A DNA stretch of 64,000 nt from Hyaloraphidium curvatum (GCA_025558095.1 JAIVFI010000005.1:1-64000); one strand, 5' to 3'. Counted from the first letter of the stretch, positions 2,752 through 54,664 are shown. Notes: generated by a model from the letters alone, not told the origin. Numbers and translations: made by a program.

Positions 2752-4882
2752 TCAAGGACGGTGAGCCAGGAGCCGGCAGCAGGGATCCGGTTGACATGGA
2801 GGCGGCCTTGGCCTGGGGGGAGCCGGGCTTGCGAGCGGCCGCCTTGGCCTTCCGTTCCGCTTTGGCGGATTTGACGTCGATTTGCTGATACGGCTTGGCA
2901 ACCTTGTCCGGGTTTGTCCCTGCCACATCCTCCACGGGACGGCCCTTGCCTGCGTGCTTGGGGCCTGGGGCCATCGTAGGATCACCAACCGCGGATGCCC
3001 CAGCGGCCTCATCGGCCGTGTGCATGTCTTCGCTTGGTGCCTCCGAGTTCGAACCATCGCCCTCAGCAGAGGCTTCGGAGGCAGCGTCGTTTCCACCCGA
3101 GGCCTCAGAGCCGGTGGCATCCTCCTCCATCGCAGATTCCGTGCCCTCCATTGCGGGAGCAGCAAGCTCCAGATCCTCCAGCGCGGTATTGGCTGCAACC
3201 TGCTGTGCAGCACTGCTGATGGCGTTCTCAGCGGCCAGCTGGTCGGCACCACCCATGTCCTCGTCCCCATCCTTGTCAGCCGGCTCCAAAATGGGAAGAC
3301 CATGGAAATCCATCTTTTCGGCGGCGTCAGACTCCCCCCAATCGACCGAAGCACCGGCACTACCACCACCAAGTGCCGAAAACCGGTTGTGGGACGCCTT
3401 GGCCACTGGCTGGGCAAGAGCTGGGGGCGCAGAGCCTGCGCGCTTGCCGGACGGCCCAGCTGTAAGCCACTCGTCGGCCGCAGGGGCGGTGGGGGAAGCC
3501 AGATGCCGAGGAACGACCTCTTCCCTCAGGGGGGGCAGCCGTGGGGTCGTGGCGGGCTCCACCGTTGGGGGAGAGAGCCGTACGTTGGCCGGGTTGTGAA
3601 TGCAGTCCGCCTCGTGTGCACGGCGTGCTTGCGGGCTGGCAAAGGCGCCGGGATTCATGCGGTTGAGACCGTCTGGGCAGTAAGCACAGTTGGTGCACGT
3701 GGCATCGTCACCGACGTGGCCGCCCGTGCGCTTGCAGTGGCCGCACTGTCCGTTGCTACTGTCATAGCGGACAGCTGGGCGAAGGAGCTTGTGCTGGAGG
3801 AGCGTCCCCCACGAGTCAAGGAAGCAGTACGAGGGTGGGCCAATGCGTGCTGCGCGGTCAAAGAAGGCATCAACCCCGCACTGCGAGACGTCGAAAGTGA
3901 CCCGCCAGAAGGCGTTGCTGTCGGTGCCCGAGATGGGAGCCGCTTCAATGACTTGGCAAGGGGCCCCATAGTGGTTCTGGAAAGTCGCGTAGAGGCGGGC
4001 CCACCAGTCCGGGCACTCGTGCACCGAACCAGGGACGATCATGGGCCCGATCTTGAGCTCGGCGTGCGTGTCCTTGAAGACAGGGTGGATGCGCAGCCGA
4101 CGCGTCGGTCCGTTTGGGAACTTGACCTCCAGCACCCCCTGCTCCACCAAGGCGTTGATAGCGTCTGCCCCGTCGACAGCACCAACAACACAGAAGAGGT
4201 CCAGTCGCGAGTAACGCGGGTTGTAGCCTCGCGTCTCGGTCGTGAAGACGGTGGTGGGGAAGGTCGCCTTCGCCACGGCTTCGGCGACGACGCGCCGTCG
4301 GTCCTTTGGCACACCGTTGAGGTCGATGAGGCAGTGGGGGACAGGCCCAATGAAGGCCGGCGTGTAGCCCCGACCGTTGGCGTGCGGTTGCACCCGATCG
4401 ATGAGCTTGGCGTAGTTGGTGGGCGCCGAGAAAGGCATGGCAGAAGCCAGATGCTCCGCCATCGCGCCGTCCGTGACACGAACAATCGGGCGGTCGGGCG
4501 AGGTGCGCGACGTTGCTGCGGCGAAAGAGCGAGACCCCAGGCGCGTGGCGGGGGCGGTTGCTTTCGGGAGACGATTGTGCTGAGCCGGCTCCTCCCGGGC
4601 GCCGCCGTTGGCGGACGCGGGGCGGATTTCAGTGGTCGATTCAGCAGCGTCCTCCTTAGAACCTGTCAGCTGAGCCGTAGCACCAGCGGGGGCCGGCGCG
4701 GGCTCCTCTGCCGCGCCAGGGAGGCGAGGAGAGGCAGCGACGCCGGGAGCGTGGGAAGAGTGGACGGGATTCGCAAGCGCCTCCGAGGAGGCCGCGGCGA
4801 GCGCAGGGGAGACCTTGCCATCAGGCAGGACCACGGGAGCGGCCGCATCATTGGGCCCCTGCCCTGTGTCAGGGGGGTCCAT
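2744..4882 (-). CDS. Retrotransposon ORF1, Gag-like protein with Cys/His cluster
   Basis: A 712-residue ORF. The first 140 residues are low-complexity Ala/Pro/Ser. A folded central part (about 140-380) follows, then a Cys/His cluster near residue 390 (CGHCKRTGGH, CTNCAYC, later H and C) resembling a zinc knuckle, and finally an acidic Ala/Glu/Ser-rich tail with Lys-rich stretches. Length, nucleic-acid-binding cysteines and the position upstream of an RT fit an ORF1/Gag-like RNA-binding protein of a non-LTR element. Its stop overlaps the start of the Pro/Ser-rich ORF by 8 nt. The long plus-strand frame over the same bases (2882-5095) is an antisense shadow. Confidence 0.75.
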   Translation of the reverse strand: MDPPDTGQGPNDAAAPVVLPDGKVSPALAAASSEALANPVHSSHAPGVAASPRLPGAAEEPAPAPAGATAQLTGSKEDAAESTTEIRPASANGGAREEPAQHNRLPKATAPATRLGSRSFAAATSRTSPDRPIVRVTDGAMAEHLASAMPFSAPTNYAKLIDRVQPHANGRGYTPAFIGPVPHCLIDLNGVPKDRRRVVAEAVAKATFPTTVFTTETRGYNPRYSRLDLFCVVGAVDGADAINALVEQGVLEVKFPNGPTRRLRIHPVFKDTHAELKIGPMIVPGSVHECPDWWARLYATFQNHYGAPCQVIEAAPISGTDSNAFWRVTFDVSQCGVDAFFDRAARIGPPSYCFLDSWGTLLQHKLLRPAVRYDSSNGQCGHCKRTGGHVGDDATCTNCAYCPDGLNRMNPGAFASPQARRAHEADCIHNPANVRLSPPTVEPATTPRLPPLREEVVPRHLASPTAPAADEWLTAGPSGKRAGSAPPALAQPVAKASHNRFSALGGGSAGASVDWGESDAAEKMDFHGLPILEPADKDGDEDMGGADQLAAENAISSAAQQVAANTALEDLELAAPAMEGTESAMEEDATGSEASGGNDAASEASAEGDGSNSEAPSEDMHTADEAAGASAVGDPTMAPGPKHAGKGRPVEDVAGTNPDKVAKPYQQIDVKSAKAERKAKAAARKPGSPQAKAASMSTGSLLPAPGSPSLNA

Positions 4883-5045
4883 ACTCTCGGGGCGGGGTGT
4901 TCGGGTCAGGGGGGTCCGGGAGGCATTAGCTACACTCTCAGAAACTGCTACTGTGCCCCCTGTGCCGCAATCCTTTGCGGCCTAGCAGCAATGTTCATCA
5001 TCGAGCCTGCGAATAAAAGGCGGTCCCTGACGGACTCCACCTCGA
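4883..5045. other. Junction between retrotransposon 5' end and Fanzor-gene 3' end
   Basis: Only 163 bases separate the Gag-like ORF start from the stop of the giant transposase-Fanzor gene. In TnpB systems the guide RNA is encoded at and beyond the 3' end of the nuclease gene, so a Fanzor omega-RNA and the element's terminal repeat would be expected here, together with the retrotransposon 5' UTR. I could not identify a terminal inverted repeat or a clear hairpin by eye. Confidence 0.35.
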
Positions 5046-8000
5046 TCAAGCAAATGCAATGGCGCCCACGCGGTGCATGGCACGCCAACTTGTAACTGTT
5101 TCCGCGGCCAGGTCAGCTTGCCGGCTTGAGCTTCTTGACCGACCCATTCGCGGCGCTTGCGGCCGTACGCTTGCGGCCTGTGGCGGCACCTGGAGCTCCC
5201 GGATCAGCTCGGGATGACGCTCGGGATGACCGTCGCGAATGCGAGCGCGCTCACCCGCGGACTTGCGCGGCGCTGCACCAGTCCCAGCTCGGAGCTTGGG
5301 CTGCGGCTTCGGCTTCCTGGTGTCCGGCCTGAACGGCCAGGGGCGCTCCCCTCCGGTGATGAGGCCGAACCAGAAGAGGTGCTCCATGGAGTGCACACTG
5401 TTCACGTCGCGCATCCAGAAGCGGCGGCAGAGGGGACAGTATTTCACCCCGCGCACCTCGCCCTTGGAGCCGGGGTTCCGGATTCCGACGACATAGGTGG
5501 TCTTGCAGCTGGAAAGGACGTCAGGCGAGTCGGATGATCACGGCGGTTGCCGCACCAGCTGCACATTTGGGACGTGAGGTACTCGTTGACCAAGACCATG
5601 ATCCCGGCCTTGGCCAGCTCCGCCCTGAAGCGAACGATCCGGGAGGCCGGGCCGCCCTTGCTCGCATGGCCGAATCGCGCGGCGCCGTATGCGATGGTCG
5701 TCTGTGGATCGTACTTGCCCGAATACGGGTTGCGACACATGTCGCGACAGATCCAGCTGAGGACCTCGCGGCGCCGGCGAATCGTGCGCACACGATCCAG
5801 GCTGCAGGATGCGTGAGCGAAGTCGTTGCCACAGGGATTGGCTTGCCCACCTCCGTTCTCCGGAACAGTAGACGTCCAGGATGCGGTCGAGTTGTGGCAG
5901 CAGCGCCCTCGTGTAGTCCGAGAAGGCTGCACTGTTCGTTGTGCGTTGAGAGGGCAGGTCGCGCTCGAAATCGTGGAGAGACTTCTGCACAGGGTTGCCC
6001 TCGCAATCGTTGACGTCCAGCATGGTGGTCCGCTTGGTGGCATTCAGACGCGCGGCCGCCTTGTCGTAGCCGCACAGGCGGCGGTCGAGCTTGGCCGGAA
6101 CACCGAGGATGAGCTCCGGCAGCGCCGGGGTCCCCGCACGGCCGGCACCAGCGACCTCGCCCCACAGCTTGGCACCAAACTCGTCCGTGCAGCCGCCAGG
6201 GGTCGGGAACAGTTCGATGTTGCGCCGAGCGTGCTTCTCCGCCTTTGCAGCGTCGTTGGGGCGCGAATCGGGCGCCGGCGGCTTGAACTCCGAGATCTTG
6301 GGCTCCCAGAGCGGGTGGTGTCTGCACGCTCCAGCGGCAGGCGGCGACGGACCGAAAGACCTTGCGATCCGCTTAGTATCGGAGCAGGAGTGCTCTAGGT
6401 GGAAGCCGACGATCCTCCCGAAGCTGACGGAACCGTCGGCCTTGGACGGGTTCGCCCGCTTCGGCACGTAGTGCGACTTGGTGCCGTCGGCATTGGTCAC
6501 GGTGATGCGCTCCGTTGTCCCCGGCAGATGACTGTTGGCGAAGTCGTAGCGTCCGTTCGGCCCGGGGTTCAGGCTCTTGGCAACGAGCCGCACGTCGACG
6601 CGGCGGTTGGCAACAGCCAGAAACCAGCGATTCGGATCCACGTCGACGACCCCGCCCTCCACTGGCTCGCCGCGCTCGGCCCGCTCGAACATTTCCGCCT
6701 GCGTCGGCATGTGCAGGAGATTGGGTGCCAGCACGGACACATGGTCAGGGCGGCTGAGGTAGTAGACGGGAATGCCAGTCTTGAAGTCGACCGGGGGCCG
6801 CGGCAACGGCTCGGCAGAACGCGGCGGGAGCGGAACCGGGGTCGGGGCCAGCTGAGGAGGTACGGGGGCAGCGAACTTGCCCTCGACCGTTACCGTCGGC
6901 GGCGACGGTTCGACCGCGCAAACGACGACTTCGGGAGGGAAGCAAGAAAGGAAGGGGGAAGGAAGTGGCGGCGAGAAGTCGGGGAAAGGAAGGGCCGCGC
7001 ATGGATGCACAGAAGTCTCGGGCACCGAGTCACCGGGCGAGACAGTCGCGCAGGGAGGGTCGTTGTGCCCCGAGCTCAGGGGCGCGAACACGTTGGGCGC
7101 ACAGTCCACGGCCTTGCAGGCGGCATCTTGACAGCACGAGCACGGGTCGTGCACCCAATGCGGGGGCGGTTCCGGGGGAATGGAGGCAGGGAGAGAAGTC
7201 GAGGCTGGTGGTTCGACGAAGGAGTTAAAGGGCGGGGGTTCCGGCGGGACCGCGGCGGGGATGCCGCAGTCCGCCGGAGGCTCGGAAGGCATGGTGGTGA
7301 AGTTAAGGTTGCTGCTGGCACAATAAGAGGGCTCCCAATCCATCGGGACCGATTCGTCCCCTTGGGCCGTCGCCTGCAGGTAGTAGACCATGCCCCCATG
7401 CCAAATCCGATTCTGGCCTGGAAAAGTGAGGATCCGATCAGCCTCCGAACCCGTGCGTCACTGAGCAAAATGCCCACCATCGAAGACAGCCATGTCGCAC
7501 GGCGGGTCCGGATCGCCGTTTGGCAGCCATGGACCGGTGTAGAGCGGCGGGTAGGGATCCATCGGAACATCGCGAGGGAACGAAACATCCACTTCGAAAG
7601 CAGCAAGACCGGCGGGCACATGAGCTGCGGCGGGAACGGAGACGGTGGGCCGAGTTTGAACAGGAGGAGCCGGCGCGGCTGCTGGCGAATGCGCTGCGCG
7701 CTTTGGCGGCTCGACGTCCTGTGTCGTGTTTTGCCGCTCCTGCTGCTGCGACTGCTGGAACGAGACCTTTTCCACGAAGGAGACTTCTTCGTTAAGAATG
7801 CCCAGGGTGCTGCCGCAATGATAGATGCCCCGGACGCCGGAGTACCTCAGAACGTCCGCGGTGCGACGATAGATGGGCTGCGTGGCGGCGGCATGGCCCC
7901 TGGCCGAGACTTTGCCCTGCTGACGGAGGCGGAAGAGCCGGTCCTCGTTGACGAGTTGGTTGCCGCCGTTGAGCAGGTGGCCGAATAGGTAGTCCGAGTC

Positions 8001-11000
8001 AACGCGCGAGGTGTCGATGCCAGGCGCGACCTCCACGCCCAGCTTGGACAAAAACTCGGGCAGATCCGAGGCCGAGATGTAGACGGTCACGGGGGACAAG
8101 CTGATTTCGGCGACCGCAGCCCGAAGCTTCCGCCGCGCCCACGAGGCTGCCTTTTCCTTGCCGGTCTGGGCGGCGCCAAGCCCCGCCATCGCGGCGGCGG
8201 CGGCCGCCTTGCGCTCCCGCCGCTTCGTCTCCATGGTCTCCTTCTTGGCGAGTCCCTCGGGCCCCGGCTGCGGTCGGCGCTTACGGAAGCTCACGACGAA
8301 CCCGTGCCATCGCTTCGGGGAGCCATTCTTGCTGTAATGCCGCTTCTCGACGCGGTGCGGCCGCCACGTGTTGCGGGCCCTCCTGGTCTTGTTCGAAGCC
8401 TCCCTGTCCTTGACCGGAGCAGTTGAAATGGTTGGGAAAGTTGGGGTTGAATCGGGGTCCCTGGCGGTGCTCGTCCTCCGCGCCGTTCCAGGTTCCGGCA
8501 GTGCAGCAGCCGCGGACGCGGCCCTCTTCTTCAGCGCCTCGTCCTGCTTTTCGAGCTCGTGCAGGGCGATGAAGCACATCTGGAAGCCGAAGGCTTCGTC
8601 CGCGGGGTTCGTGGATGAACGACACTTGTCGAGGTCATACTCGCTCATCCGCGCCACCAGAAGCTTCTCGCTTTCCCAGTGGGGCCGGTTCTGCCCCACC
8701 AATGCCGCCGCCGCCGCCTCGTTCATGTCCTCGGCGTGCTCGGGGACCCAGAACTTGGGTTTCTGCTCTGTCGACCGAATCGTTGCCGTGGTCACGGCCG
8801 GGTAGCGGAAGGGGATGCTCCGAAGCTGTAGACGGTTTGCAACCACCCAGTCCCTCAGCTCCTGCAGCTCCACCTTTCGCAAGTCAGCCTTCTCCGCAGG
8901 TGAGGCCCGCGGCAGCGTCTCCCAAATGTTCTGGAGGTAGCTGCGCACCGCCTCCGTTTCCGCGTCGACCTTTCCGCGCGGCTTGCCCTTCGGCAGGTTC
9001 ACGGTTCGCACCGCGGCCGCCACGGGGTTGCCCGCCTGCTTGTCCTGCAGGACCCGAGCGATAACCCTCCGCTGCGAAACGGTTGCCGGCACCGGCGGCT
9101 TCTGTTTTGAATCCCGGAGGTCAACGATCCGGTTCAGCTGCAAGCCTCTGAACGGCCGGAGGAGCCTCCCCAGCCCGACCCTGAGCTCCGTGGCCTCGGC
9201 GAGACCACAGCCAAATGCGCTTTCGAACGGGAAATTGGAGAAGTCGTCGTCCCCATATCCGAGCTTTGCCAGAGCGTAGCTGAGGATTGGGCCAATCCGC
9301 CTCCGGCCGACGCCCGCGTTCACCTCCCCGCGTAGGAAGCGACGGATGAGAACCTTGAGCGCAGTCAGCAGCCGCTGCGGCACGCTTCGAGCTCGGTTGA
9401 AAGCGACCTGCTCGGCATAGCGGAGCAAAGGTCCCTGCACGAAAAGCGGCCTGAGCTTGTCGTACGTCTCGCCCACAAGTTCCCGCGCCTCTGCAAACGC
9501 AGCAACGGCCGCCTTGCGGACAAGCTTTGCCGCTGCGTTGTGCTCCGCGACGGTGAGAACGGACGGTGCGCCCTGATCAGCAACCTGCGAGAGATCGGGG
9601 GTGTCCTCAGCCGTAACCAAGTCCTCGTCCTCAATCTGATCCAGCTCGCCGTGCAAGAAGTCGGCCAAGATCTTGGCGCCGGCCTGGTCCTCGGCCATCG
9701 CGTCGTCATCGTCCTCGAAGTCAACGTCCTCGAGCACCTCGTCTCGATCGTCGTCGTTGGCTCCGAGGTCCGGACCGCCGTCCACAAGCTGCTCCACTCC
9801 TGGCGCCCCCGAATGGCCCGAGTATCTCGCCCCAGCACCGAGCCCGGCCGACTTCTGCTTTCCCGCGCGGCGGGTTCCAACAGCGGCGGACATCTGGCCG
9901 GCACCAAGCACGGCGTGGATGGCAATCTTTGCGACGTAAGACGGGGGAAAGCTGGCGAGCATGTCCTGCGTGACGGATCCGTCTTGGTCCGGGAGCTCTT
10001 TGTTGTGGATCTGCAACAAGATCTTGGTCCAGATGATCTTGAATAAGATGGCGGCGAGGGTGCAGGCCTTGGTGATGAGGGGCCCGACTTGCTCGTACGG
10101 GCCCCGCGCCCATGGGTGGCACACCTCGGCCGCCGGGAACCACTCGACGGCCAGCTCCGTCATCGTCTTGTATCGCTCGTGCTGGGGGTCGCCAAGTGCG
10201 AGGAAGCCGTTGAGCGCGACCCACCGCCGCTTCGGAGAGCACTCCTGCCGGTGCCTCCCGCCACCGGCGAAACAGAAAGGGCAGGACGAGCCGCCGAGGC
10301 CCGTAGGAATGTTGGCTTTGAGGTTTGTCGACGCGAACGGGACAATGTAGTGTGCGTTGGCAATGAACTGGCCGAACGACGTGGTGAGATTCCTTGGGGC
10401 GACCAAACTGTCCGCGGCGGCGGTCAGCTTCGCATCGGTCCCAGGCATGCATGGAAAGCGCGGTGCAACTCACGCCCCACGGTGGTTCTCCTCGACATGC
10501 TGCCGGAACTCACTCTCGAGGTCGAACTGATGTCCCTTCCCCGGGCACGCTCTGCAGGTGAGGTGCGCACCCTTGACGTGGTGGAGGAGCCGAAGCTCGG
10601 CGTCATAGACACGCTCCCGCGCAGCTCCGTCAGCCACCATCCCCGACGCCGCGACCTTGCGCCGCCGCCCAGCCTTCGCCGGGACTTCGCCTTCCACCTG
10701 CACACTGAAGGAACAGAGCGGACAATCCCGCTTCTGGATACGGCCGAAGTCCAGCAGTCCAACGGATTCCGCGAGGAAGTGGAGCTTGGCGTCGAGCGCG
10801 GTGCGCGCGGCCTCCTGCCGTGCTTCGGGGTTGCTACCGCGCACCAGCGCGGGCATACCGCACAAGTCCAGGGTAAAATCGCGCATCTTGGGCCCCGACT
10901 CCAGCAGCCGCAGCGTCACCATGGAAGAGTGTTCCCACCCGAGCTGCTCCGCCTTCAGGAACAGGGTTGCCAGCAGCTTATCGCCCTCTGCATCCAGTCC

Positions 11001-13418
11001 AGGTACGCCCGGGCTCATCTGGAAAAGGCCCGGGAACGAAAGCAGCTGCCGGGGCAAAAATCAGTTTGGGATTGCGGGGCTGCTCGACAGGAGATTGCAC
11101 ACCAGCACGGGAACGGAACCCGGATTCTCGATGGCGAGGGCCTCCTCGTTGGCCGCCATCGGGTTCCACACCGCCCAATCGAAGAATCTCTTGCGCCCTT
11201 CCGCATTGCGACTCGCCACACTATCCGGCAAACGCGCCGCCATGACTATCTTGCATCGCTGCGGGAGGGAGAGCGAAGCAAGGAAGTACTCCAGGCCGGG
11301 CGACGCATCAAAAAGCGAGCGGCCCTGCTGGTCCTTCTGCGTGCGGCACGCTTCCTCCAGTATCTGCCTAAGGTTCCTTGGCAGAGACTCGGTCGAAGCC
11401 GCGCGTTCGAGGTACTCCAACCGACAGACCTTCGAAATGGGCTGGTGAACATAATGCAGAGCACGACGTGCTGTCTCGGATGTTTCGAAGCTGTCCATGC
11501 GTGCCCTCCCGGCCGGGCCGAGCTGTCCCCAGAGAGAAACAGCGAGCGCACGTAGCCATTCTGGTCCACGACCGTTTCGTACAAGGCCCGATAGGAGGAT
11601 GGCGAACCTCTCGTCCAGCACGGTGTCGTTTGCAAGGGCTGAGAGCGGAAACAGCTGTTTCAACGCGGCGCGGCTGGCTTTCTTGAACGAGACGTTAAGT
11701 TCCGGTGGGACGTCGGCATAGCGGGCGAGGTTATCCAGCTGGGAGATGGAGACGTCGGGGGCTGACGGCGGTCCCAGATCCGCGCCATCGTCCGCGGGGC
11801 GGAAAAAGGGAGGTGCCGGTGCGTCTGGTCCGATCAGACTGGGGGCGACCCGGCGCCGCCGGGCGACGATGTTCCGGAGGCGCGCGACGAAAAGCTCGCG
11901 CTCCAGCTTGTACCCCCGACCCGATGCCACCCGCTGACAGATGAACTCAAAAGGAGCTTCACCGAGGTTGGAGAGGCCCCCGAGGACGTCCGCAGCGTCG
12001 AAGCCCGCGGTCCTTTGAGCGGAGTCCGTGAAGTCGTTCCACGGCCCAAAGAATTCCCTCGCCGAACCATCGACGTGGAGAACTTCCCTCAGGGTCAGCA
12101 AAGTGTGCTTTTGGTGCGGGTTGATGTGGGCGACGCCGAGGTTGCGAGCCTGCTCGGAGTGGGCGTTGTCGTGAGTCAGCGCGGTCTGCATGCCCGATGC
12201 GCAACCGTCATGGCAGTCCACCTCTTCAGCGAGCCGCTCGGCCGCGTTTGCTTCGGTCTGGGTCGCTGCTGCGCCCTCCATCGCGGAAGGGCACGTCTGA
12301 GGAGCCGGAGAAGCAAAGGCAGAGATCTGACCTTGTAGTGTGACCTTCCGCGCCACACATTTGCCGGCGGACGCGGATTCCGCGATGCGCACAAACTCAG
12401 CCTCGCTTAGCTTCAAGCAGTGCCGGAACGTCGCCATCAGATCGCCGTGGCCGACGATTTGAATGGCCCTCTCGATGGACCGGACGAGATCCGGCACCGT
12501 CCTGGGGCAGTCCCGCCTCACGAGGTTCTTGATCGTGGCAAACACGTACTCGGTCGGGTTAAATTCCGGCGATCTCGGTCGCAGGTAGATGAGGCTCAGA
12601 TTGTTGGCCTTTGCTACGGCCTGGACCGCAAGGAACGACTTGCCCGAGAGGTTCTTTATTATTGCCGTGCCGTCCGTGGTCTTCCTTGCCCGCAGAGGAG
12701 AGCCGTGGAAACCCGCATTGTCCAGGATAACGCCCAGGGACTCGGACCCACAAGCCCCGGCGCGAATAGTCTTGAGAAAAGCACAGAACCTCTCGGTGTT
12801 CATGTTGCCGCTGTAGATCTGGTACGAGATCACGTTTCCAGTGTGATTACCGGGTCGCGGAGTGGGTGAGATGGCGAGGCAAAGGGTCACCTTGGGGCCC
12901 CGGTTCCCTGGCAGGTATACGACGGCGGGAGTCCCCTTCTCCGAGTAGCCGAAGCGCCCCGGATCGTTGAGTTGGAATGAGGACTCGTCCAAGGCACCTA
13001 GGCGCCCCAAATCAAAGGAAGTGACCCTCTCGTGGAACATGCGGTGCCGCTCGGGTTGTTTCAGGGCTTCGGCGCTCTTAATGGTGAGCTTCTTCCTCGT
13101 GACCCTGTTGGCCTTCAGCAGCCGCGAGATATGCTGCTGCGACACCAAAACGCCAAACTTTTCCGCCAGGTCAGCAGCGAGCTCCCTTTGCGTCACGCGG
13201 ACGCGAGCTTTGGCCTCGTCAACTACGTGCCGGACCATTTCCTCGGACACCTTGCGGAAGGCCTTGCGGGGATGGTCCGGAACGGTCTGAGCCCCACATC
13301 GGCGGATCCAACGGAAATACGTCGTTCGGTGAATTGCGAGTACAGCAGCAATCTCGTCCGGGCCAAGCTTGCCGGTCTGCTTGAGCCGAACCGCGGTTTC
13401 TGGCCCGCTCAGAAGCAT
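5046..13418 (-). CDS. Giant DDE transposase-Fanzor fusion gene (6 exons, about 2697 aa)
   Basis: Exons (minus strand): 13418-11103, 11045-10474, 10407-7478, 7417-5851, 5801-5556, 5508-5046. Introns are 57, 66, 60, 49 and 47 nt, all GT-AG, most with CTGAC/CTGAT before CAG. Each in-frame TGA (at 11061, 10470 and 7458) falls in one of the first three, and the last two repair both frame changes in the nuclease. Residues 1-340 are an IS630/Tc1-mariner transposase: N-terminal HTH, then D144 (LDESSF), D233 (ILDNAGFH) and E290 (SPEFNPTEYVFATIK). The middle (about 340-2140) is unrecognised, with C/H clusters near 890-960 and 1000 (CPFC..H..C) and an acidic patch. The C terminus is Fanzor-like: RuvC-I D2200 in DVDPN, a YGAARF motif, E2535 in NEYLTS (the relocated catalytic Glu typical of Fanzors), a CxxC...CPLC zinc ribbon and D2578 in RDVNS. 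The Fanzor call is firm; single-protein fusion is inferred from splicing. Confidence 0.7.
5300..6800 (-). mobile_element. Fanzor (eukaryotic TnpB-like) RuvC nuclease domain
   Basis: This is the region of the giant gene that carries the nuclease. The Asp of RuvC-I is encoded at 6636-6638, the Glu of NEYLTS at 5582-5584 and the Asp of RDVNS at 5406-5408. The zinc-ribbon cysteines lie either side of the 47-nt intron (5509-5555) and in CPLC just before RDVNS. All residues expected for catalysis and zinc binding are intact once the 49-nt and 47-nt introns are removed. Fanzor proteins are known as RNA-guided DNA nucleases carried by eukaryotic transposons. Activity and guide RNA here are not shown by the sequence. 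Confidence 0.85.
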
Positions 13419-14127
13419 GTTTTGGCCGTGCCGTTCCCCGATGCGACGCAGGAGGCACCACGCGCCTTTTGCGATGGAGACTGTGCTCTAGCGGTTGCAA
13501 ATTCGCACGCGGCGACTCCGGCAAGCTCGAGTAGCGGGACCTGTGTGTGAAACGAATTCGATCGCCCGGCCTTGTGGTGATTCAGCCCCTCCCCAGCGGG
13601 CTGCGCAGGGCCGTTCTCGCAGCTGGCGAAACCGCGATCCCGCTGTATGCCGAGAATGCGAATGCGCCTTGACTAGTCGCTGTGAGAGGGAGGCGCGGCC
13701 GGTGCGGAAATCGCCAAGGGCAGGCCCGGGCGGCGGAACGCGCTGGGCCTTGGGCCCACACCAAGAACAGTTTCTATGGCGCGGCGAATGCAAATGGATC
13801 GATTCTAAAAGCCATCGTAGGCGCGCCCGAAAGGTCCAGGCACGCCTCAATGGTGGTAGCGTGGGGCGGAAAGCGATCGCCCCAACGCCTCCACACGCCC
13901 CCCCCGCCATCACGGTTGCAGTCGGGGAAGGGCGTCACTCGGATCATTTTCGAGGGCACTGCGTTTCGCGGGCAGAGGGCGGCTCGGTGGCGGGACGGTG
14001 CGGGATCGGCGTTGATCGGGAAGGGGGAGGGGACGGTTGACGCGGTCGGCGCGGGGTCTCGAATGTTCGCGATTGCGGGCTGATGTACGCGGTTCAAATA
14101 TGAGTCCCGAGGTCCCGTCGGGTTGCA
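13419..14127. other. Intergenic region upstream of the transposase-Fanzor gene
   Basis: About 700 bases with no credible coding sequence; short frames here lack family motifs. It must hold the promoter of the giant gene and, if the gene is part of a DNA transposon, the end of the element. A direct visual comparison with 4883-5045 did not reveal a matching inverted repeat. Confidence 0.4.
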
Positions 14128-20436: not shown

Positions 20437-21030
20437 CGCGGGACGGGCCGAAGAGGGCGGGAAAGAGGGGTGGCCGTCGGAGATGTCGCCCAGGTTGTTG
20501 GCGCCGCAGGCCCGTGGCGAATGGCGCCGAAACCGTTCACCCGCATCCCGGACGCCAAGGGCAAAGTCGGTCCGAAGGAGGGCAGGAGTAAGCATTGACC
20601 TGATGACGAAACGTTCCTTTGAGCAGTAACGGCACTTATTGTGTCCTTGCGGCGGCCTCCGTGACTGGTGCAGTCGACCACAGGTTGCACCTTGGCCCGC
20701 CCACTCAGGAGACAAGTTTACAGAGCGACGCATAAAGTGGATTGTCAAGTGCCCAAATTGTCTCTGGAGGGATGCGTTAAGCCACAGCCTTGGCCAGATT
20801 GGGTGACAACAGGAACCGGCGAGTGAGGGAGGGCATGCTTTCCGCCCTGGCTGCTCTCCGATTCGCATTCTCTCGGCATCCGGACCAGTCCATGACGCAA
20901 TCCCAAATGCCGCCTCCGTAGAAGAACGGTTTCGGTGTGGAGAAGTACTCGGCGAAAAATGGTGACTCGACAAGGGTCATCCCCAAACCGCAGCACCGCC
21001 ACGCGCCTCAGGACCAAATCCAAACACGAA
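20437..21030. other. Divergent intergenic region
   Basis: About 590 bases between two genes transcribed away from each other: the monooxygenase (minus) and the EGF-repeat protein (plus). It should hold both promoters. No repeat or RNA gene is evident. The plus frame stays open upstream of the chosen start of the EGF gene, so a longer N terminus is possible. Confidence 0.4.
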
Positions 21031-23616
21031 ATGATTCACGCGCAAACGAATAGCAGCTGCGGCGATTTCCGCCGCACCAATCGCAGAGCCCTGTGTGCGG
21101 CACTGGCGGCGGTGCTCGTGGCGGGCGCCGCCGCGGCGGAGCCGCAAGGGATCCGCGAGAGGACCTCGCCGACGTGCGTCTACTACTACTACCAGAACTT
21201 CACGGAGCCTGCCACCGGCGCCGCCGGCTGCCGGGTTTACCAGGGCGGATGCCAGTACCTTACCCCGACGGGTACCTGCCCCGGCGAGTCGTGGTACTGC
21301 CCCGAAAGTTGCGGGGACCCGGCCCGGCGGCTGCCCAACTCCTGCGAGGACCCCAACGGCAGGAAGACGTGCGGCATCCCTTCGAACGGCCTCGCGATTT
21401 CGACATGGACGGCCAACACCACCGTGGAGGAGGACGGCGGGAGGTGCTTCCTCAAGGAAGCGTGGAGCCTGTACCGGGGGCCTCCGTATTCGCGGAGCAT
21501 CGACTACAAATTGAACTGCAACTCGACGGCACCGTGCCGGTGGGACCTGCTCACCGCTTCGAGGAGGGTAACAGCGAAGCCCGGGACTTCTACGTGGGTC
21601 CTGGAAGCGTCGCACCTCCTGACGGACCCCAAGGTCTCGGACGCAAGCATGGCCGGCGCTGCTGCCTGCAGGGCCGCCATGGCGTGCCCCCCATTTTTGG
21701 CGGGCCTGCTCCGCTCGGCCGCGGAGGTGGACTACGGCGGCACCGGCTTCGTGTGCCTTCCCGGCGATGCCGGGTTCAAGGACGGCATCCTGGTCAAGCG
21801 CGACGCCATGGGCCGGGCTGCCTGCCTCGACGACGGCACCGGATCCTGCATGGTGCTCCCAGGACCCTGCTGCGATGTCCTCGGGCGGAGCACCGCGGCC
21901 GTGTACGGTCTGCGGCCCACGATGTGGCCCGCGGTCCCGTGTCCCGCCGGCGCATCCTGGTGCGCCCGCGCGCTGGCCGCCACCGCGGAACTCCCTGGCT
22001 TCAATCCGATGCTGGGGTTCAACTGCACGTTCAACGCCTTTCCCGGACCCAACCGCAACACCTTTGTCGAGACCGCGCACGACCGCTCGGCGGGCCCGTG
22101 GACGGCCGTGAGGTCGGACCACCACAACGTGGACCCGGACCGGGTTTCGAAATCGACCTACTCCTACCGCATCCTCCGTCGTACCGGTACGCGTGCCATA
22201 GCCTGCATGGGCTACAATTTTGCCGGACAATCAGGCACCTGCCTCGACGCCGCCATCACCGATCCCGGCTGCGCCGCCAACCTCGCCCGCACGGTGCCTT
22301 GGAACATATACTGGCAAGTGCTGGACCGGACGGAACCTGTCTACGCCGACCGGGACGCCCTGCGGCGCCTAGGCCTCGATCCCTCGCAGCCCGTTCCCGC
22401 CGTGGCCCCCGATCCCCCGCGCCCGCCGCCGCGCGGCCCATGGACCTGCGTGCAGCTCTGCGGCGAGGGCGGCGACCGCATTCTAGTGCGGTACCTCGGT
22501 TCCGGTGGGGGGGTGCAGTGCAAAGGCCCTGACGCCGGGAGGTGCTCCCTCTTCCGGGGAGCGGACTGCGCCTCGCTCGCGCCGAACGAGCCGGATCCGC
22601 ATGCCTCGGGCGAGGTCGGGTACATATGCAGCGAGGAGGACCAGAAGGTGGGGTGGTGTGCCCGCGCCGCCGCTGCGGTCGTGCCGTGGGGCAGCGGGGT
22701 CGCCGACTGCCCCGCCGCCGACATCAAACCGCCGTGCAACGGCACGTGCTCCCCGTCGGCTTCTTGCATCCGCGAAGGCACCCGTTCGTTCTGCTCGTGC
22801 AACGACGGCTTCTTCGGCGACGGTGCGACGTGCGCGCCCGATCCCTGCGCGGCAAACAACGGCGGCTGCCCCTCGGCCGCCATGTGCACGCCCACCGCCG
22901 GCGGGCCCGTCTGCACCTGCCTGATCGGCTACGTCGGGGACGGGAGGACGTGCCTGCCGGACCCGTGCGCCGGCAACGGCGGATGCTCCCCCCACGCCTC
23001 GTGCACGCGCACGGGCTGGAGCTCGAGGACATGCGCGTGCCTGGCCGGGTACGCCGGGAACGGCACGCACTGCAGGGAGGAGCCGTGCGCGGGGACGACC
23101 TGCGGGCCTCACGCCGCGTGCATGGTCAGCGCGGGCCTGCCGTACTGCATGTGCCTGGGCGGCTACACGGGCAACGGATACGATTGCAGGTCCAAGTGTT
23201 TGACCAGGAACGGCGGGTGCTCCGCCAACGCGGTGTGCTCCATCAAGCCCGGGGGCCGCGCCGTCGCGTGCACCTGCAAAGCGGCGTACTACGGGAACGG
23301 GGTAACGTGTAGGGCAAAGGGCGCCGTCAGGCTCTCGCTTTCGGTCCCCGCGAGCTCCCGCCGCGGGAGGGCGGTGGCACTGTCGGCGAAGGCCTTGAAC
23401 GCCGCGGGCAAGGCGGTGCCCAGCATCGTAATTTCCTTCCAGATCGGCTCTGGTGCGAGGGTCAACGCGACCACCAACGCCGGTGGGACGGCGTCGGTCA
23501 GATACTGGCTGCCGGCGAAGGCGGCCCTGGGCAGGACCGCCGTCGTCGCGCGCTTCCTGGGCACTGGAACTCTGCTGCAGACCTCGGCAACGAGTACGCT
23601 GACTGTAGTGAGGTAG
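21031..23616 (+). CDS. Secreted EGF-repeat protein
   Basis: Single-exon, 861 aa from the ATG at 21031, chosen because a secretion signal follows (ALCAALAAVLVAGAAAA, cleavage near AAA-EPQG). The N-terminal 530 residues are Cys-rich with no domain I recognise. Residues about 565-760 hold five to six tandem EGF-like modules of the C-x-C-x(4)GYxGDGxTC type. The C-terminal 95 residues form a Thr/Ala/Val-rich Ig-like (Big) beta domain. No TM or GPI signal is obvious, so it is probably secreted or wall-associated. EGF tandem arrays are common in animals and protists but unusual in fungi. An in-frame ATG at 20959 is an alternative start. Confidence 0.85.
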   Translation: MIHAQTNSSCGDFRRTNRRALCAALAAVLVAGAAAAEPQGIRERTSPTCVYYYYQNFTEPATGAAGCRVYQGGCQYLTPTGTCPGESWYCPESCGDPARRLPNSCEDPNGRKTCGIPSNGLAISTWTANTTVEEDGGRCFLKEAWSLYRGPPYSRSIDYKLNCNSTAPCRWDLLTASRRVTAKPGTSTWVLEASHLLTDPKVSDASMAGAAACRAAMACPPFLAGLLRSAAEVDYGGTGFVCLPGDAGFKDGILVKRDAMGRAACLDDGTGSCMVLPGPCCDVLGRSTAAVYGLRPTMWPAVPCPAGASWCARALAATAELPGFNPMLGFNCTFNAFPGPNRNTFVETAHDRSAGPWTAVRSDHHNVDPDRVSKSTYSYRILRRTGTRAIACMGYNFAGQSGTCLDAAITDPGCAANLARTVPWNIYWQVLDRTEPVYADRDALRRLGLDPSQPVPAVAPDPPRPPPRGPWTCVQLCGEGGDRILVRYLGSGGGVQCKGPDAGRCSLFRGADCASLAPNEPDPHASGEVGYICSEEDQKVGWCARAAAAVVPWGSGVADCPAADIKPPCNGTCSPSASCIREGTRSFCSCNDGFFGDGATCAPDPCAANNGGCPSAAMCTPTAGGPVCTCLIGYVGDGRTCLPDPCAGNGGCSPHASCTRTGWSSRTCACLAGYAGNGTHCREEPCAGTTCGPHAACMVSAGLPYCMCLGGYTGNGYDCRSKCLTRNGGCSANAVCSIKPGGRAVACTCKAAYYGNGVTCRAKGAVRLSLSVPASSRRGRAVALSAKALNAAGKAVPSIVISFQIGSGARVNATTNAGGTASVRYWLPAKAALGRTAVVARFLGTGTLLQTSATSTLTVVR

Positions 23617-43571: not shown

Positions 43572-43632
43572 CATTCCTGGGCACAGAACCAGCGTTTCCA
43601 TGTGCATTTGGCAGAATCCATCCCCTTCCATC

Positions 43633-44709
43633 CTAAAGCTTCCCGGCCTGCTTCTTCTTGGCCTCCAGCTCCGCCTGCCGCTTGGCGAACCCGTTGCTCG
43701 TGTCCGACCCCGCCGTGACGGTCCGCGCCACCTGCCAGTAGGTCTCGTCGATGATGGCCGTGCGGAGCGCGTTGCGGACCGGGTTGCTGGTCCGCCATGT
43801 CAGCTGCCGTCTTCTCCCTGCCCGCAGTCGGTGCAGACCCACCGGATGAGCGACTTGGCCTCCAGCATGGTCGAGTGGTTGAACGTCTCCACCATCTGGT
43901 CGAGCATCTTCTTCGCCTCGTCGCGGAACACGGCGTCGGGCCACAGGCGCTGCACGCCGCCGACGGTGTGGAGCTCCTTGGCCGTGACCTTGCGCCCGGT
44001 GAGCGCCATGTCGAGGGTGAGGCCGGCCCCGATGCGCCACTGCCTGTGCGTGCCGAGTTGGGAAAGATCGGTAAGCAACCAAGATGCCGACCGAGTCCCC
44101 GCCGCGAACGCACCACGCCATGCTCGCCCCCGCCTCCAGCATCGCCCCCAGCGTCACGAACGGCATGTACACGTAGCAGCTCTCCGCGGCCAGCAGCAGG
44201 TCCCCCGACGCGATCCAGCACGCCGGCCAGCCGATCGCGGGCCCGTTGAGCTCCATGATGGTGATCTTGGTGTGCTCCACCAGGGCGAGGGCGGCGCCGC
44301 CGGGGCCGGACCACAGCATGCGGTGCTGCTCCTCCTGCGCGTCGTAGCGGGAGGTGAAGCCGCGGTTGCGGGGGCTGCTTTCGGCGATGTCCTTGAGGTC
44401 TGCCACGAGCGGGTCAACGGGTGCCCATGTCGCGCCCCGGGGAGTCGGGGACCCACCCTGCCCGGCCGAGAAGAACCTCCCTTCTCCAGTGATACGCGTG
44501 AACACCACCACCGGCAGGGTATCGATGAACCGCAGCGCCTTGATCAGCTCCGGGTAGCTCCCGTACTGCGTCAGCGAGTTGAGGCTCTTGGGCCGGTTCA
44601 GGACCAGGTTCGCCACTTTCCCGCCGTGGGAGACAGAGACGACGATGTCCTTGAACTGGGGCATCTCCTTGAGGAGCTCGGTCTGGAGGGCGGCTTTGGC
44701 GGCGTCCAT
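43633..44709 (-). CDS. Enoyl-CoA hydratase/isomerase family protein
   Basis: ATG at 44709. First exons 44709-44457 and 44399-44080; the later exons join across short introns around 44040-44079 and 43803-43850, ending KKKQAGKL at 43633. Crotonase motifs: LVLNRPKSLNSL, FFSAGQ (oxyanion-hole strand, completed by splicing to DLKDIAESS), MELNGPAIGW and the GA.lE.G segment. C-terminal Lys-rich helix. Length about 280 residues, near normal. It could act in beta-oxidation as hydratase or delta3,delta2-isomerase; the C terminus AGKL is not a canonical PTS1 but is close. Divergent from prephenate dehydratase with a 153-base shared promoter. Confidence 0.8.
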   Translation of the reverse strand: MDAAKAALQTELLKEMPQFKDIVVSVSHGGKVANLVLNRPKSLNSLTQYGSYPELIKALRFIDTLPVVVFTRITGEGRFFSAGQGGSPTPRGATWAPVDPLVADLKDIAESSPRNRGFTSRYDAQEEQHRMLWSGPGGAALALVEHTKITIMELNGPAIGWPACWIASGDLLLAAESCYVYMPFVTLGAMLEAGASMAWCVRGGDSVGILVAYRSFPTRHAQAVAHRGRPHPRHGAHRAQGHGQGAPHRRRRAAPVARRRVPRRGEEDARPDGGDVQPLDHAGGQVAHPVGLHRLRAGRRRQLTWRTSNPVRNALRTAIIDETYWQVARTVTAGSDTSNGFAKRQAELEAKKKQAGKL

Positions 44710-44862
44710 GGCGGGCGGAACGGGATTCGGAGGGGCGGAACGCGCCTTTGGTGGGCGGCGCCGCGAGATGCCGGAACTGGCGTCGCTTCCAAGCCCTTGT
44801 GCTCTGTTTACCCTCCCCTCCGACGCGTCTTCTGCAGTTCGCTGCTCGATCCCGGCCCAGCA

Positions 44863-45881
44863 ATGTCCCGCCTTGCGTATCTCGGCCCACCGGGCACGCA
44901 CTCCCACGCCGCCGCCCTCGCCTCCTTCCCCTCGGCCACCTTTGTCCCCGCGCCCTCGATCCCCGGCCTGTTCGACGCCCTCCGCGCCGGCGACGCCGAG
45001 TACGCCCTCGTCCCGCTGCAGAACTCGCGCAGCGGCGGGGTGGCGCTGTCGCTGGACGCGATTGTGGCGTCGGTCCGCCGGGGGGGTGTGAGGGCGTGGG
45101 CGGACGCGTTCGTGGAGGTGCACCACTGCCTTCTCGCCAACGGACCGGACGGGCAGCCGCCGGACCTTTCGAAAATCAGGAAGGTGTACTCGCACAACGA
45201 GGCGCTGGCGCAGTGCGCCGGGTTTCTGGCGAGGAGGTGCCCGGGGGCGGAGCTGGTCCGGGTGGACTCGACGGCGCGGGCCGCGGAGGTGGCGGCGAAG
45301 GAGGAGGGAAGCGCGGCGATCGCGTCGGGGACGTGCTCGGATATCTATGGGATAGATGTGATGGAGAGGGACATCGAGGACGCACATGGTGGGTCCATGC
45401 ATTGCCGAACGGTTTCACGGTCCTCGGTGCTGACCCGTCCGACACGTCTCCATCAGACAACACGACGCGTTTTGTCGTCATTTCCTTGCCGTCGGCACCA
45501 CCACCACCCTTCCTCCCCTCCCAATCGCCATCTAGCCCTCCCTCCTCCCCCCAAACAGCCCTCCTCCTCCTCCTCCCCATCCAACCCCACGCCGCCACCT
45601 TTGACCCCCGCACCGCCATCGCCGGCACCACCAACTACGCCCTCAACCTCGGCGCCACCGAATCGCTCGCCTCGATCGTGGAGGCGCGCGCCGCCGTGCG
45701 CAACATGTGGAGCCGGCCGCACGTGGCGCCCGGGGGGACGGGGGCGGGGAGGTTCAGGGAGTGGTGGGTGGTGGAGTGCTGGCTGCCGCCGGGATGGACG
45801 GCGGAGAGGTTGGGGGAGGAGATTGAGGGGAGGGGAGGGTGCGAGGAGGTCGTGGTGCTGGGTTCGTGGGCGGCGGAGTGA
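44863..45881 (+). CDS. PHA2: Prephenate dehydratase (phenylalanine biosynthesis)
   Basis: Exons 44863-45388 and 45457-45881, intron 68 nt; 316 aa. It starts with MSRLAYLGPPGTHSHAAA, then LVPLQNSRSGGVALSLD, VHHCLLA, VYSHNEALAQCAGFL and the catalytic region IASGTCSDIYG. Across the splice comes DAHDNTTRFVVIS, the family's D-N-x-T-R-F motif with catalytic Thr. The C terminus (TTNYALNLGATESLASI...) is the ACT regulatory domain, modified with a long Pro/Ser insert just after the TRF motif. The enzyme converts prephenate to phenylpyruvate, and the ACT domain normally gives feedback inhibition by phenylalanine. Yeast PHA2 is the functional counterpart. Confidence 0.9.
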
Positions 45882-46068
45882 GGCGGCGCGGCGGATGGAG
45901 ACGACGTTGCTTGGACCTGGACGATGAGCAACGTAGTACTAATCAACTAGATGAACTCAGAGTTAGTTTTGAAGTAAGAGGCGGGAAAACCTAGAGAGGG
46001 GACGGCGGTGGCGAAGCACCTCCGACTTTTGTTTCCGCCCTCAAAGACTGCCTGTTCTTCTCGCGAAG

Positions 46069-52963: not shown

Positions 52964-54664
52964 TCATCCCTCGGGCCTCTGCAGCCCCTCGGCCTCGACG
53001 ATCGCCCGCAGCCTCTCCGGCAGCTCCTCGCTGGACGGCCGCTTGGCCGGATCCGAGTCCCAGCACGCCTCGATCAGCCCCCACAGCGCGTCGGGGGTGC
53101 CCTCCTGCCGGGCCGGCCGCTCCCCCGCGGAGAGCGTGTCGAAGATCTGCGCGCAAAGTAAGGCGGGCGGTGAGCCTCCCCCGCATGCGCGACAGCCGGC
53201 CGGGTTCCCACCTCGCTGCTCCTGACCCGATCCACCGTCCCCGCCGCGCGGAACGGCTGCCTGCCCCCCGCGGTCACCTGGTACAGCATCACCCCCCATG
53301 CGTACACGTCCGCGCTCGGCGCCTTGCGGTACGGCGCTCCCGCATTCCCCATCTCGAAGACCTCGGGCGGCTGATACATGGCGGTCGCCCTGCCGTAGCT
53401 GTTTCTCGAGGAGGACCCGCGGAGGGAGCGGAAGCGGGCCATGCCAAAGTCCGTGATCTTTGCGCGGTGCGAAGAGATGAGGACGTTGCTGGGGGTGAGG
53501 TCGCCGTGGATGATGCCGCTGCGGTGGGCGTGGCGCAGGCCGAGGGAGACGTCGTGGAGGAGGTGCAGGCCGCAGGCGAGGAATTCCTTTTTTAGAGAGG
53601 GTGAGGTTCCTCCGGCAGGTCTGTTTGAAGAGGTAGGCGACGAGGTCGCCGCCGTCGGCGATCTCCGAGGCCATCAGGCACGGGTCGAGCGAGAAGGCGA
53701 GCAGCCTGTGGATGTTTTTGTGCTCCAAGGCCGCCCAGATGCGGACCTCGCGGAGGAAAAGCCGCTCCAGCTCGGGCGACTGGTGCTCGATCATGACCTT
53801 GACCGCCGCCGGGGTCCGCGACACGCCGTCGGGGCCCACGAGGTGGCCGCGGTAGACGTACCCGAACCCGCCTTCGCCGAGGAAGGTCGAGTCGTCCCTC
53901 CAGTTGTACACGATCCGGGTGGCGTCGACCTTGAGCCTGTTGAACCCCTGCGCGACGACCTCCTCGAGCAGCACCGCCCGCAGCACCCCGCTGCACGCGT
54001 CTCGGGGGGGCACCCCGCGCGCGTCGGGTTTGTTGACCTCGACGCGGTCCTGGTGGTTCAGCATCAGCCTGACCACGGCCTCGGAGCCGGACGCGCAGGC
54101 GTGCCAGAAGGCCGTGCGGCCTTCATTGTCCGTCGCGTTCAGGTCGACGGGGTGCTCGGGGCTCAGGAGCTCCTGGACGATCTCGAGGAGGTTCAGCCTG
54201 CACGCGTGCATGAGCGCCGTCGTCCCGCCGCGGTCCTTCTTGTTGACCTGGTCCGGCGTGATCCGCTTCGGGTGCTCCAGCAGGATCCGCAGGGTCTCGT
54301 ACTGGTTGTTGATGCACGCCGCCATGAAGGCGTTTGAACCGTCCGCCGCCTCGAGTCCGTAGCCCACGGCGCCTTCGCGGGGAGGCCGCGCGACGAGCTG
54401 CCTCACCACGGCCTCGCGCCCCTCCCTGCAGGCCAGGTCGAACCCCGACTCCCCCGCGGCATTGCGCGCGTCGGCGTCCGCGCCGCGCTCGAGCAGCATC
54501 GCCGCGAGGAACAGCCCGCCGCGGGCGCACGCGGCCGCGAAGCACCGGTCGCCCTGCGCGTCGGGCGCGTCCAGGCGCGATGCGTGGGCCGCGATGAACC
54601 GCCCTACCAAGCGAGGGTCGTCGCTGGCGCAGGCGGCATCGAAGGCGCGCTCGTAGTCCGCCAT
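52964..54664 (-). CDS. Ankyrin-repeat tyrosine-kinase-like (TKL) protein kinase with a frame break
   Basis: ATG at 54664. Residues 1-220 carry about five ankyrin repeats (for example GDRCFAAACARGGLFLAAMLLERGAD and GGTTALMHACRLNLLEIVQELL). The kinase follows: FLGEGGFGYVYRG (glycine loop), AAVKVMI (Lys), LLAFSLDPCLMASEIADGGDL, HGDLTPSN (catalytic loop) and ITDFGMAR. After it come the YQPPEVF segment and DVYAWGVMLYQVTAGGRQPF, and a last exon joined by an intron at about 53147-53211 (IEACWDSDPAKRPSSEEL). Between hinge and catalytic loop the frame moves +1 at TCTAAAAAAGGAATTC (about 53590). Everything else is intact, so this is either a sequencing or assembly indel, a real lesion, or recoding. Confidence 0.75.
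   Translation of the reverse strand: MADYERAFDAACASDDPRLVGRFIAAHASRLDAPDAQGDRCFAAACARGGLFLAAMLLERGADADARNAAGESGFDLACREGREAVVRQLVARPPREGAVGYGLEAADGSNAFMAACINNQYETLRILLEHPKRITPDQVNKKDRGGTTALMHACRLNLLEIVQELLSPEHPVDLNATDNEGRTAFWHACASGSEAVVRLMLNHQDRVEVNKPDARGVPPRDACSGVLRAVLLEEVVAQGFNRLKVDATRIVYNWRDDSTFLGEGGFGYVYRGHLVGPDGVSRTPAAVKVMIEHQSPELERLFLREVRIWAALEHKNIHRLLAFSLDPCLMASEIADGGDLVAYLFKQTCRRNLTLSKKGIPRLRPAPPPRRLPRPAPRPPQRHHPRRPHPQQRPHLFAPRKDHGLWHGPLPLPPRVLLEKQLRQGDRHVSAARGLRDGECGSAVPQGAERGRVRMGGDAVPGDRGGQAAVPRGGDGGSGQEQRGGNPAGCRACGGGSPPALLCAQIFDTLSAGERPARQEGTPDALWGLIEACWDSDPAKRPSSEELPERLRAIVEAEGLQRPEG

Follow-up and report, generated by a model that had tools for sequence, protein, structure and literature searches.

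The locus described here raises the question of whether a DDE transposase and a Fanzor-type RNA-guided nuclease can be encoded as one polypeptide. It lies in a 64,000-nucleotide stretch of Hyaloraphidium curvatum DNA (the window), which forms the start of contig C5 in a genome of 31.9 Mb and 55 contigs and has a G+C content of 61-71% in 2-kb pieces. Ordinary host genes occur elsewhere in the window, encoding an EGF-repeat protein (20935-23613), a prephenate dehydratase (43600-45924) and an ankyrin-kinase (52967-54664). A first-pass annotation of this DNA had proposed a covalent fusion of the two enzymes in a single 2697-codon reading, and had noted that Fanzor genes on mariner and other eukaryotic transposons are separate ORFs. 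The literature agrees on the latter point, as Fanzor1 and the Tc/mariner transposases that accompany it are separate proteins (PMC3627910); Fanzor associations with mariner, hAT, Crypton and Helitron elements are also on record (PMC10711439). No DDE transposase/Fanzor fusion was found in the literature consulted, where only separate ORFs are described, although coverage was incomplete and Repbase was outside the scope.

The minus-strand frame that begins at 13418 contains in-frame TGAs at 11063, 10472, 7460 and 5540 and is thus not one uninterrupted ORF. A related transposon family in the same genome, family B (five copies, 8,653 bp), was used for comparison with that of the locus, family A. 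The tblastx alignment of A and B exhibits coding conservation along most of the element length, and introns with GT-AG boundaries were placed at the short gaps where this alignment changes frame. The spliced reading of A comprises 2,653 residues, not 2697, with six introns of 47-66 nt and a stop codon that ends at 5113; that of B comprises 2,685 residues with eight introns of 49-61 nt and aligns with A end to end. All internal in-frame TGAs of A fall inside introns, and donor position 5 is a G in every intron placed in the two families. Decoding of TGA as a sense codon was ruled out because B requires frame changes at these places. Third codon positions differ between A and B more than first and second positions in every segment from transposase to nuclease, the excess being only marginal in residues 1500-1720. 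The two families are about 66-71% identical as DNA in their longest conserved blocks and about 30-65% identical as protein, depending on the region, with the same domain order and matching introns. The features of the family A element are collected in Table 1.

Table 1 Features of the family A element and its flank, in window coordinates.
Feature	Position	Strand	Basis
Complete family A transposon, 8,629 bp	4927..13555	-	boundaries common to nine copies with differing flanks
Target-site motif in flank, consensus AAGGG.TT, -34 to -25 from left end	13578..13587	-	outside element; ten-copy comparison
Imperfect inverted repeat at left end, TCGTTTCACACACAG (four copies have TAG..)	13541..13555	-	comparison of copies
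Right imperfect inverted end CTGAGAGTGTAGCTA	4927..4941	-	comparison of copies
Putative fusion gene from ATG to stop, with 2,653 codons and six introns	5113..13418	-	full-length alignment of spliced reading with family B
IS630-type DDE transposase domain and N-terminal HTH, residues 1-345	12384..13418	-	DDE_3, NF033545, A/B identity
Transposase C-terminal extension, residues 346-772, remainder of exon 1	11103..12383	-	coding-type A/B conservation, 33-38% amino-acid identity
Junction intron 1, 57 nt, GTGTGC..CTGAT..CAG	11046..11102	-	intron at corresponding place in B, C, D
Linker zinc cluster 1, CxxC..H..CxxC-x15-H-x4-H, residues 880-962	10474..10724	-	same pattern in B and C
Intron 2, 66 nt	10408..10473	-	matched in B
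Exon 3, linker and probable N-terminal part of Fanzor module, residues 963-1940	7478..10407	-	A/B 28-38% amino-acid identity
Linker zinc cluster 2, CxxC-x6-H-x3-C, residues 1005-1019	10239..10283	-	pattern shared by B, with a variant in C
Intron 3, 60 nt	7418..7477	-	matched in B
RuvC-I Asp D2200 (VDVDPN)	6636..6638	-	invariant in A, B, C
Intron 4, 49 nt	5802..5850	-	matched in B and C
RuvC-II Glu E2535 at the alternative position, six residues ahead of first zinc Cys	5582..5584	-	ExxxxxxCxxC in A, B, C
Intron 5, 47 nt	5509..5555	-	matched in B
RuvC-III Asp D2578 (RDVNS)	5406..5408	-	invariant in A, B, C
Intron 6, 65 nt	5190..5254	-	matched in B
37-nt block at 3' end of element, hairpin-capable, candidate guide-RNA scaffold (no guide RNA demonstrated)	5015..5051	-	92% identical A/B

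Two further families, C and D, are each represented by a single copy, both on contig C2, and share about 31-35% and 30% identity, respectively, with the Fanzor part of A. The junction intron that follows the transposase is 57 nt long in A and 59 nt, at the same place, in B; in A a second possible donor site (GTGCTG), located 6 nt upstream, would also keep the frame. In C and D the introns of 60 and 59 nt follow an FVP that matches the VP of A and B, and their lengths preserve the frame. The similarity between C and D is strong before this intron (z 7.1) and weak after it (z 1.6), and the correspondence of A and B to C and D is based on domain order and the subsequent zinc-finger pattern. The Fanzor part of D sits in a 2,066-codon open frame. 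As the transposase readings of C and D are each split over two frames, these single copies may be damaged.

The same junction would be read differently if the transposon carried two tandem genes, the transposase ending at the intron 1 TGA and a second gene having its own downstream start, as in known Fanzor elements. The transposase frames of A and B do stop at a matching place, the intron 1 stretch is somewhat alike at the protein level (VCNLLSSSPAI and VSNVLASSSSI), and a methionine common to A and B lies about 50 residues downstream. However, only about 15 nt separate the TGA from the point at which conserved coding sequence resumes. At the junction, all four families have GT, CTGAY-like and CAG signals, and the A/B coding similarity resumes right after intron 1, upstream of the first shared methionine (z 6.3), a residue that is absent from C and D. 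Two tandem genes are regarded as quite improbable. A single gene that encodes transposase and nuclease together is the preferred reading, to which we assign a probability of roughly 0.88 on the genomic data, no cDNA being at hand. The fusion is very likely, and not a one-off, since B has the same order and matching introns, C and D share the order and the junction intron, and D retains its long open frame. The architecture put forward in the first-pass annotation thus gains support from the related families. Copies in which the two parts are unlinked, which it had named as a refutation, were sought as well; A, B, C and D all keep the order, the strand and a spacing of ~7-8 kb.

Four more A-like transposases, at C23:297272-315232, C13:321470-344212, C15:359140-378740 and C3:874428-890442, each have a match to the Fanzor C-terminus on the same strand, 16-22 kb further downstream, pointing to larger relatives of the element. 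More distant Fanzor-like frames, with 28-29% identity and 666-1,230 open codons, were seen at C1:1444944, C7:693716, C2:359426, C31:259618, C2:417432, C34:485560 and C14:724628, the last with a DDE_3 match 4 kb upstream on the same strand. A search for relatives in viral contigs and phages yielded none that was convincing.

Profile searches, which the first-pass annotation had proposed for both termini, matched the N-terminal part to DDE_3 (PF13358, E 5.7e-15) and to the IS630 transposase profile NF033545 (123 bits; cut-off 100). The catalytic triad D144, D233 and E290 is present in A and also in B, with 57 residues, not about 34, between the second Asp and the Glu, and the transposase parts of the two families are 63-66% identical in amino-acid sequence. 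A match of the transposase to an L7Ae chain in the PDB (E 9e-4) was regarded as chance. The proposed IS630/Tc1-mariner label holds as far as the catalytic domain is of IS630 type; 'Tc1/mariner' is too narrow, as the TA target site duplication is not met in B.

At the C-terminus, the nuclease residues that had been taken for a complete Fanzor RuvC set (D2200, E2535, the C4 ribbon and D2578) were found, like the triad, at the positions claimed. The RuvC-I motif reads DPN, not DPG, in A, B and C. A glutamate at the alternative position marks Fanzors (PMC10711439), and the corresponding ExxxxxxCxxC sequences are NEYLTSQMCSCC (A), NEYLTSQMCSKC (B) and NEHGSSANCSDC (C); the C4 zinc ribbon followed by RD (CxxC..CxxC..RD) is likewise present in all three. 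The TnpB/Cas12f zinc ribbon profile PF07282 matches A at the gathering score (E 8.6e-6), B just below the cut-off and C above it (30.2 bits). Amino-acid identity between A and B in the RuvC part is 50-62%. The Fanzor spacing of 125-275 residues from D to [TS][TS] (Bao and Jurka 2013, PMC3627910) is not met, the distance in A being about 337 residues, and a PDB sequence search returned only TnpB-like L79 and LaTranC, weakly, over the E-C4-RD region. The element is classed as an IS630-type transposase/Fanzor-like nuclease fusion and not as a standard member of either Tc1/mariner or Fanzor, because TA duplication and DPG were both tested and not met.

Between the two enzymes lies a linker of ~1,800 residues with acidic and proline-rich stretches, probably unstructured, and with 28-41% amino-acid identity between A and B. 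Its two Cys/His clusters, noted in the first-pass annotation, are zinc-finger-like and are both kept in B, and the spacing of the first across families is CxxC..H..CxxC-x15-18-H-x4-H. Exon 3 has no match among Pfam and NCBIfam profiles, and single-sequence AlphaFold models of exons 1 and 3 (pLDDT 39 and 38) were unusable for assigning a fold. So long a linker of this composition would suit a polyprotein that is made as one chain and then cut into transposase and nuclease; no protease domain was found in the Pfam and NCBIfam searches, and such processing is considered unlikely. The only NPGP sequence, a candidate for 2A-type cleavage (residue ~2222), lies inside the RuvC part, has no 2A context and is missing from B.

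When the 3' part of the element was used for DNA searches, nine further copies were detected that end at the corresponding position or within a few bases of it. The ten family A copies in the genome, that of the window included, are 99.7-99.9% identical by alignment, and their flanks are unlike, which indicates independent insertions. The full in-frame reading is retained in eight of the ten. Of the nine others, six show no frame-breaking change relative to the copy in the window, while the remaining three carry an in-frame 171-bp deletion, a 1-bp deletion, and a stop together with a lost 5' end, respectively. In family B, four of the five copies are intact. Judged by their copies, families A and B have spread recently. 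Three A copies have 5' ends that are shortened or different just inside the terminal ~15 bp, so the left-end sequence is variable within the family. A repeat at window positions 4500-4900 adjoins the element and is found at about 19 other places, one of them at a distance of about 1 kb from a contig end with terminal TTAGG repeats.

Imperfect terminal inverted repeats of ~13-15 bp are present in both families. The TA duplication expected for IS630/Tc1-mariner elements is not seen, as family B lacks TA at its right junction; the A copies have TA at the right, and at the left in only 4/10. Exact empty insertion sites were sought and none was found.

Insertions occur at a fixed distance downstream of a family-specific motif, 25-34 bp in A and 21-30 bp in B. 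In the left flank of A, position -27 is a T in all ten copies and the consensus AAGGG.TT spans -34 to -26. The 10-column block totals 7.8 bits, whereas none of 5,000 randomly shifted sets exceeds 4.7; the block of B at -30 to -21, GCGTCGATC, exceeds all 5,000 shifted sets. The motifs are degenerate, and AAGGGGTTTCCC occurs five times in the genome, twice at A insertions. These observations were made after the fact on 10 (A) and 5 (B) sites, with an offset that repeats at unrelated sites. Most insertions are placed shortly upstream of an ATG, which lies no more than 51 nt from the right end in 13 of the 15 copies, as might be seen if host factors chose the site, with insertion favoring promoter or transcription-start regions and the motif being a host promoter element. 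The B motif GCGTCGATCAC is also over-represented, with 79 genomic occurrences against 6 in the reversed control, three of them at B insertions, and may be a host regulatory motif. The A motif AAGGGNTTTCC, however, is not (39 against 44 in the control), and the A and B motifs differ, so that choice by host factors remains possible but doubtful.

A constant distance between insertion and family-specific motif, in an element whose protein has a nuclease of RNA-guided type, also recalls CRISPR-associated transposons, in which case a guide-loaded Fanzor would bind the motif and the DDE domain would insert at a set distance. The degeneracy of the motifs speaks against such RNA-guided insertion, and a DNA-binding domain explains the offset equally well. 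No convincing guide matching the target motif was found inside the element, a target-motif 8-mer being absent from B and from the 3' end of A, and no guide array was detected. RNA-guided insertion is given slightly less weight than the tandem genes.

The account favored here, which we hold to be probable though far from settled, is that of an autonomous DNA transposon whose sole gene would yield one long spliced protein composed of the IS630-type DDE domain, the zinc-finger linker and the Fanzor-like nuclease. The DDE domain would excise and insert the element at its inverted ends. The family-specific linker fingers, by inference only, would bind the target motif and direct insertion about 25-30 bp downstream, in 5' leader DNA. 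The Fanzor part may bind RNA from the 3' end of the element, the guide being derived from the right flank, and may cut the donor site again once the element has left it; repair off a sister copy would then put the element back, a role already proposed for TnpB. The conserved 37-nt block fits a guide RNA from this end, but folding of the whole 3' end is no more stable than that of shuffled controls (z -0.3 and -0.9). In a fused protein both activities would be held together on the same ends. Gene structure, domain order, conservation in related families, multi-copy spread, catalytic residues and fixed-offset motifs are read directly from the DNA; production of the full-length protein, guide-RNA binding and DNA cutting are inferred, in the absence of transcript or protein data. 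A wider proposal, that one polypeptide selects its site through the linker fingers or an RNA-loaded Fanzor, inserts through the DDE domain and defends its copy by guided recutting, is speculative and rather unlikely; if true, it would describe a single-protein eukaryotic counterpart of CRISPR-associated transposons. The fusion itself, if true, would be the first case of a DDE transposase covalently joined to a Fanzor/TnpB-type nuclease as far as the literature found extends. With both activities in one protein, the question of what Fanzors do for transposons would become directly testable, and the fixed-offset target motif makes the element a candidate for site-directed integration in eukaryotes.

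IS607/IS605 elements with TnpA and TnpB and Tn7-like CRISPR-associated transposons likewise combine a transposase and an RNA-guided nuclease relative in one mobile element, and the Tn7-like systems insert at a fixed offset. Unlike the present element, they use separate proteins and other transposases. IS630 family transposases (NF033545, DDE_3) share with element A the HTH and the DDE core, at a score above the family cut-off; the element differs in the 57 residues from the second Asp to the Glu and in the 2,300 further residues that follow. Fanzor1 and Fanzor2 (PMC10432273, PMC10711439) share the RuvC-I Asp, the alternative Glu six residues ahead of the C4 ribbon and the RuvC-III RD, whereas here DPN replaces DPG, the D-E spacing is 335 residues and the nuclease is fused behind a transposase. 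The closest parallel in overall content is Fanzor1 in the Tc/mariner elements PGv-1 and PUl-1 (Bao and Jurka 2013, PMC3627910), which likewise pair a Fanzor-type nuclease and a transposase of the Tc1/mariner superfamily within a single eukaryotic or viral DNA transposon. In those elements the enzymes are separate proteins and the copies are flanked by TA, whereas element A is read as one spliced gene with a ~1,800-residue linker and an offset target motif, and family B lacks the TA duplication.
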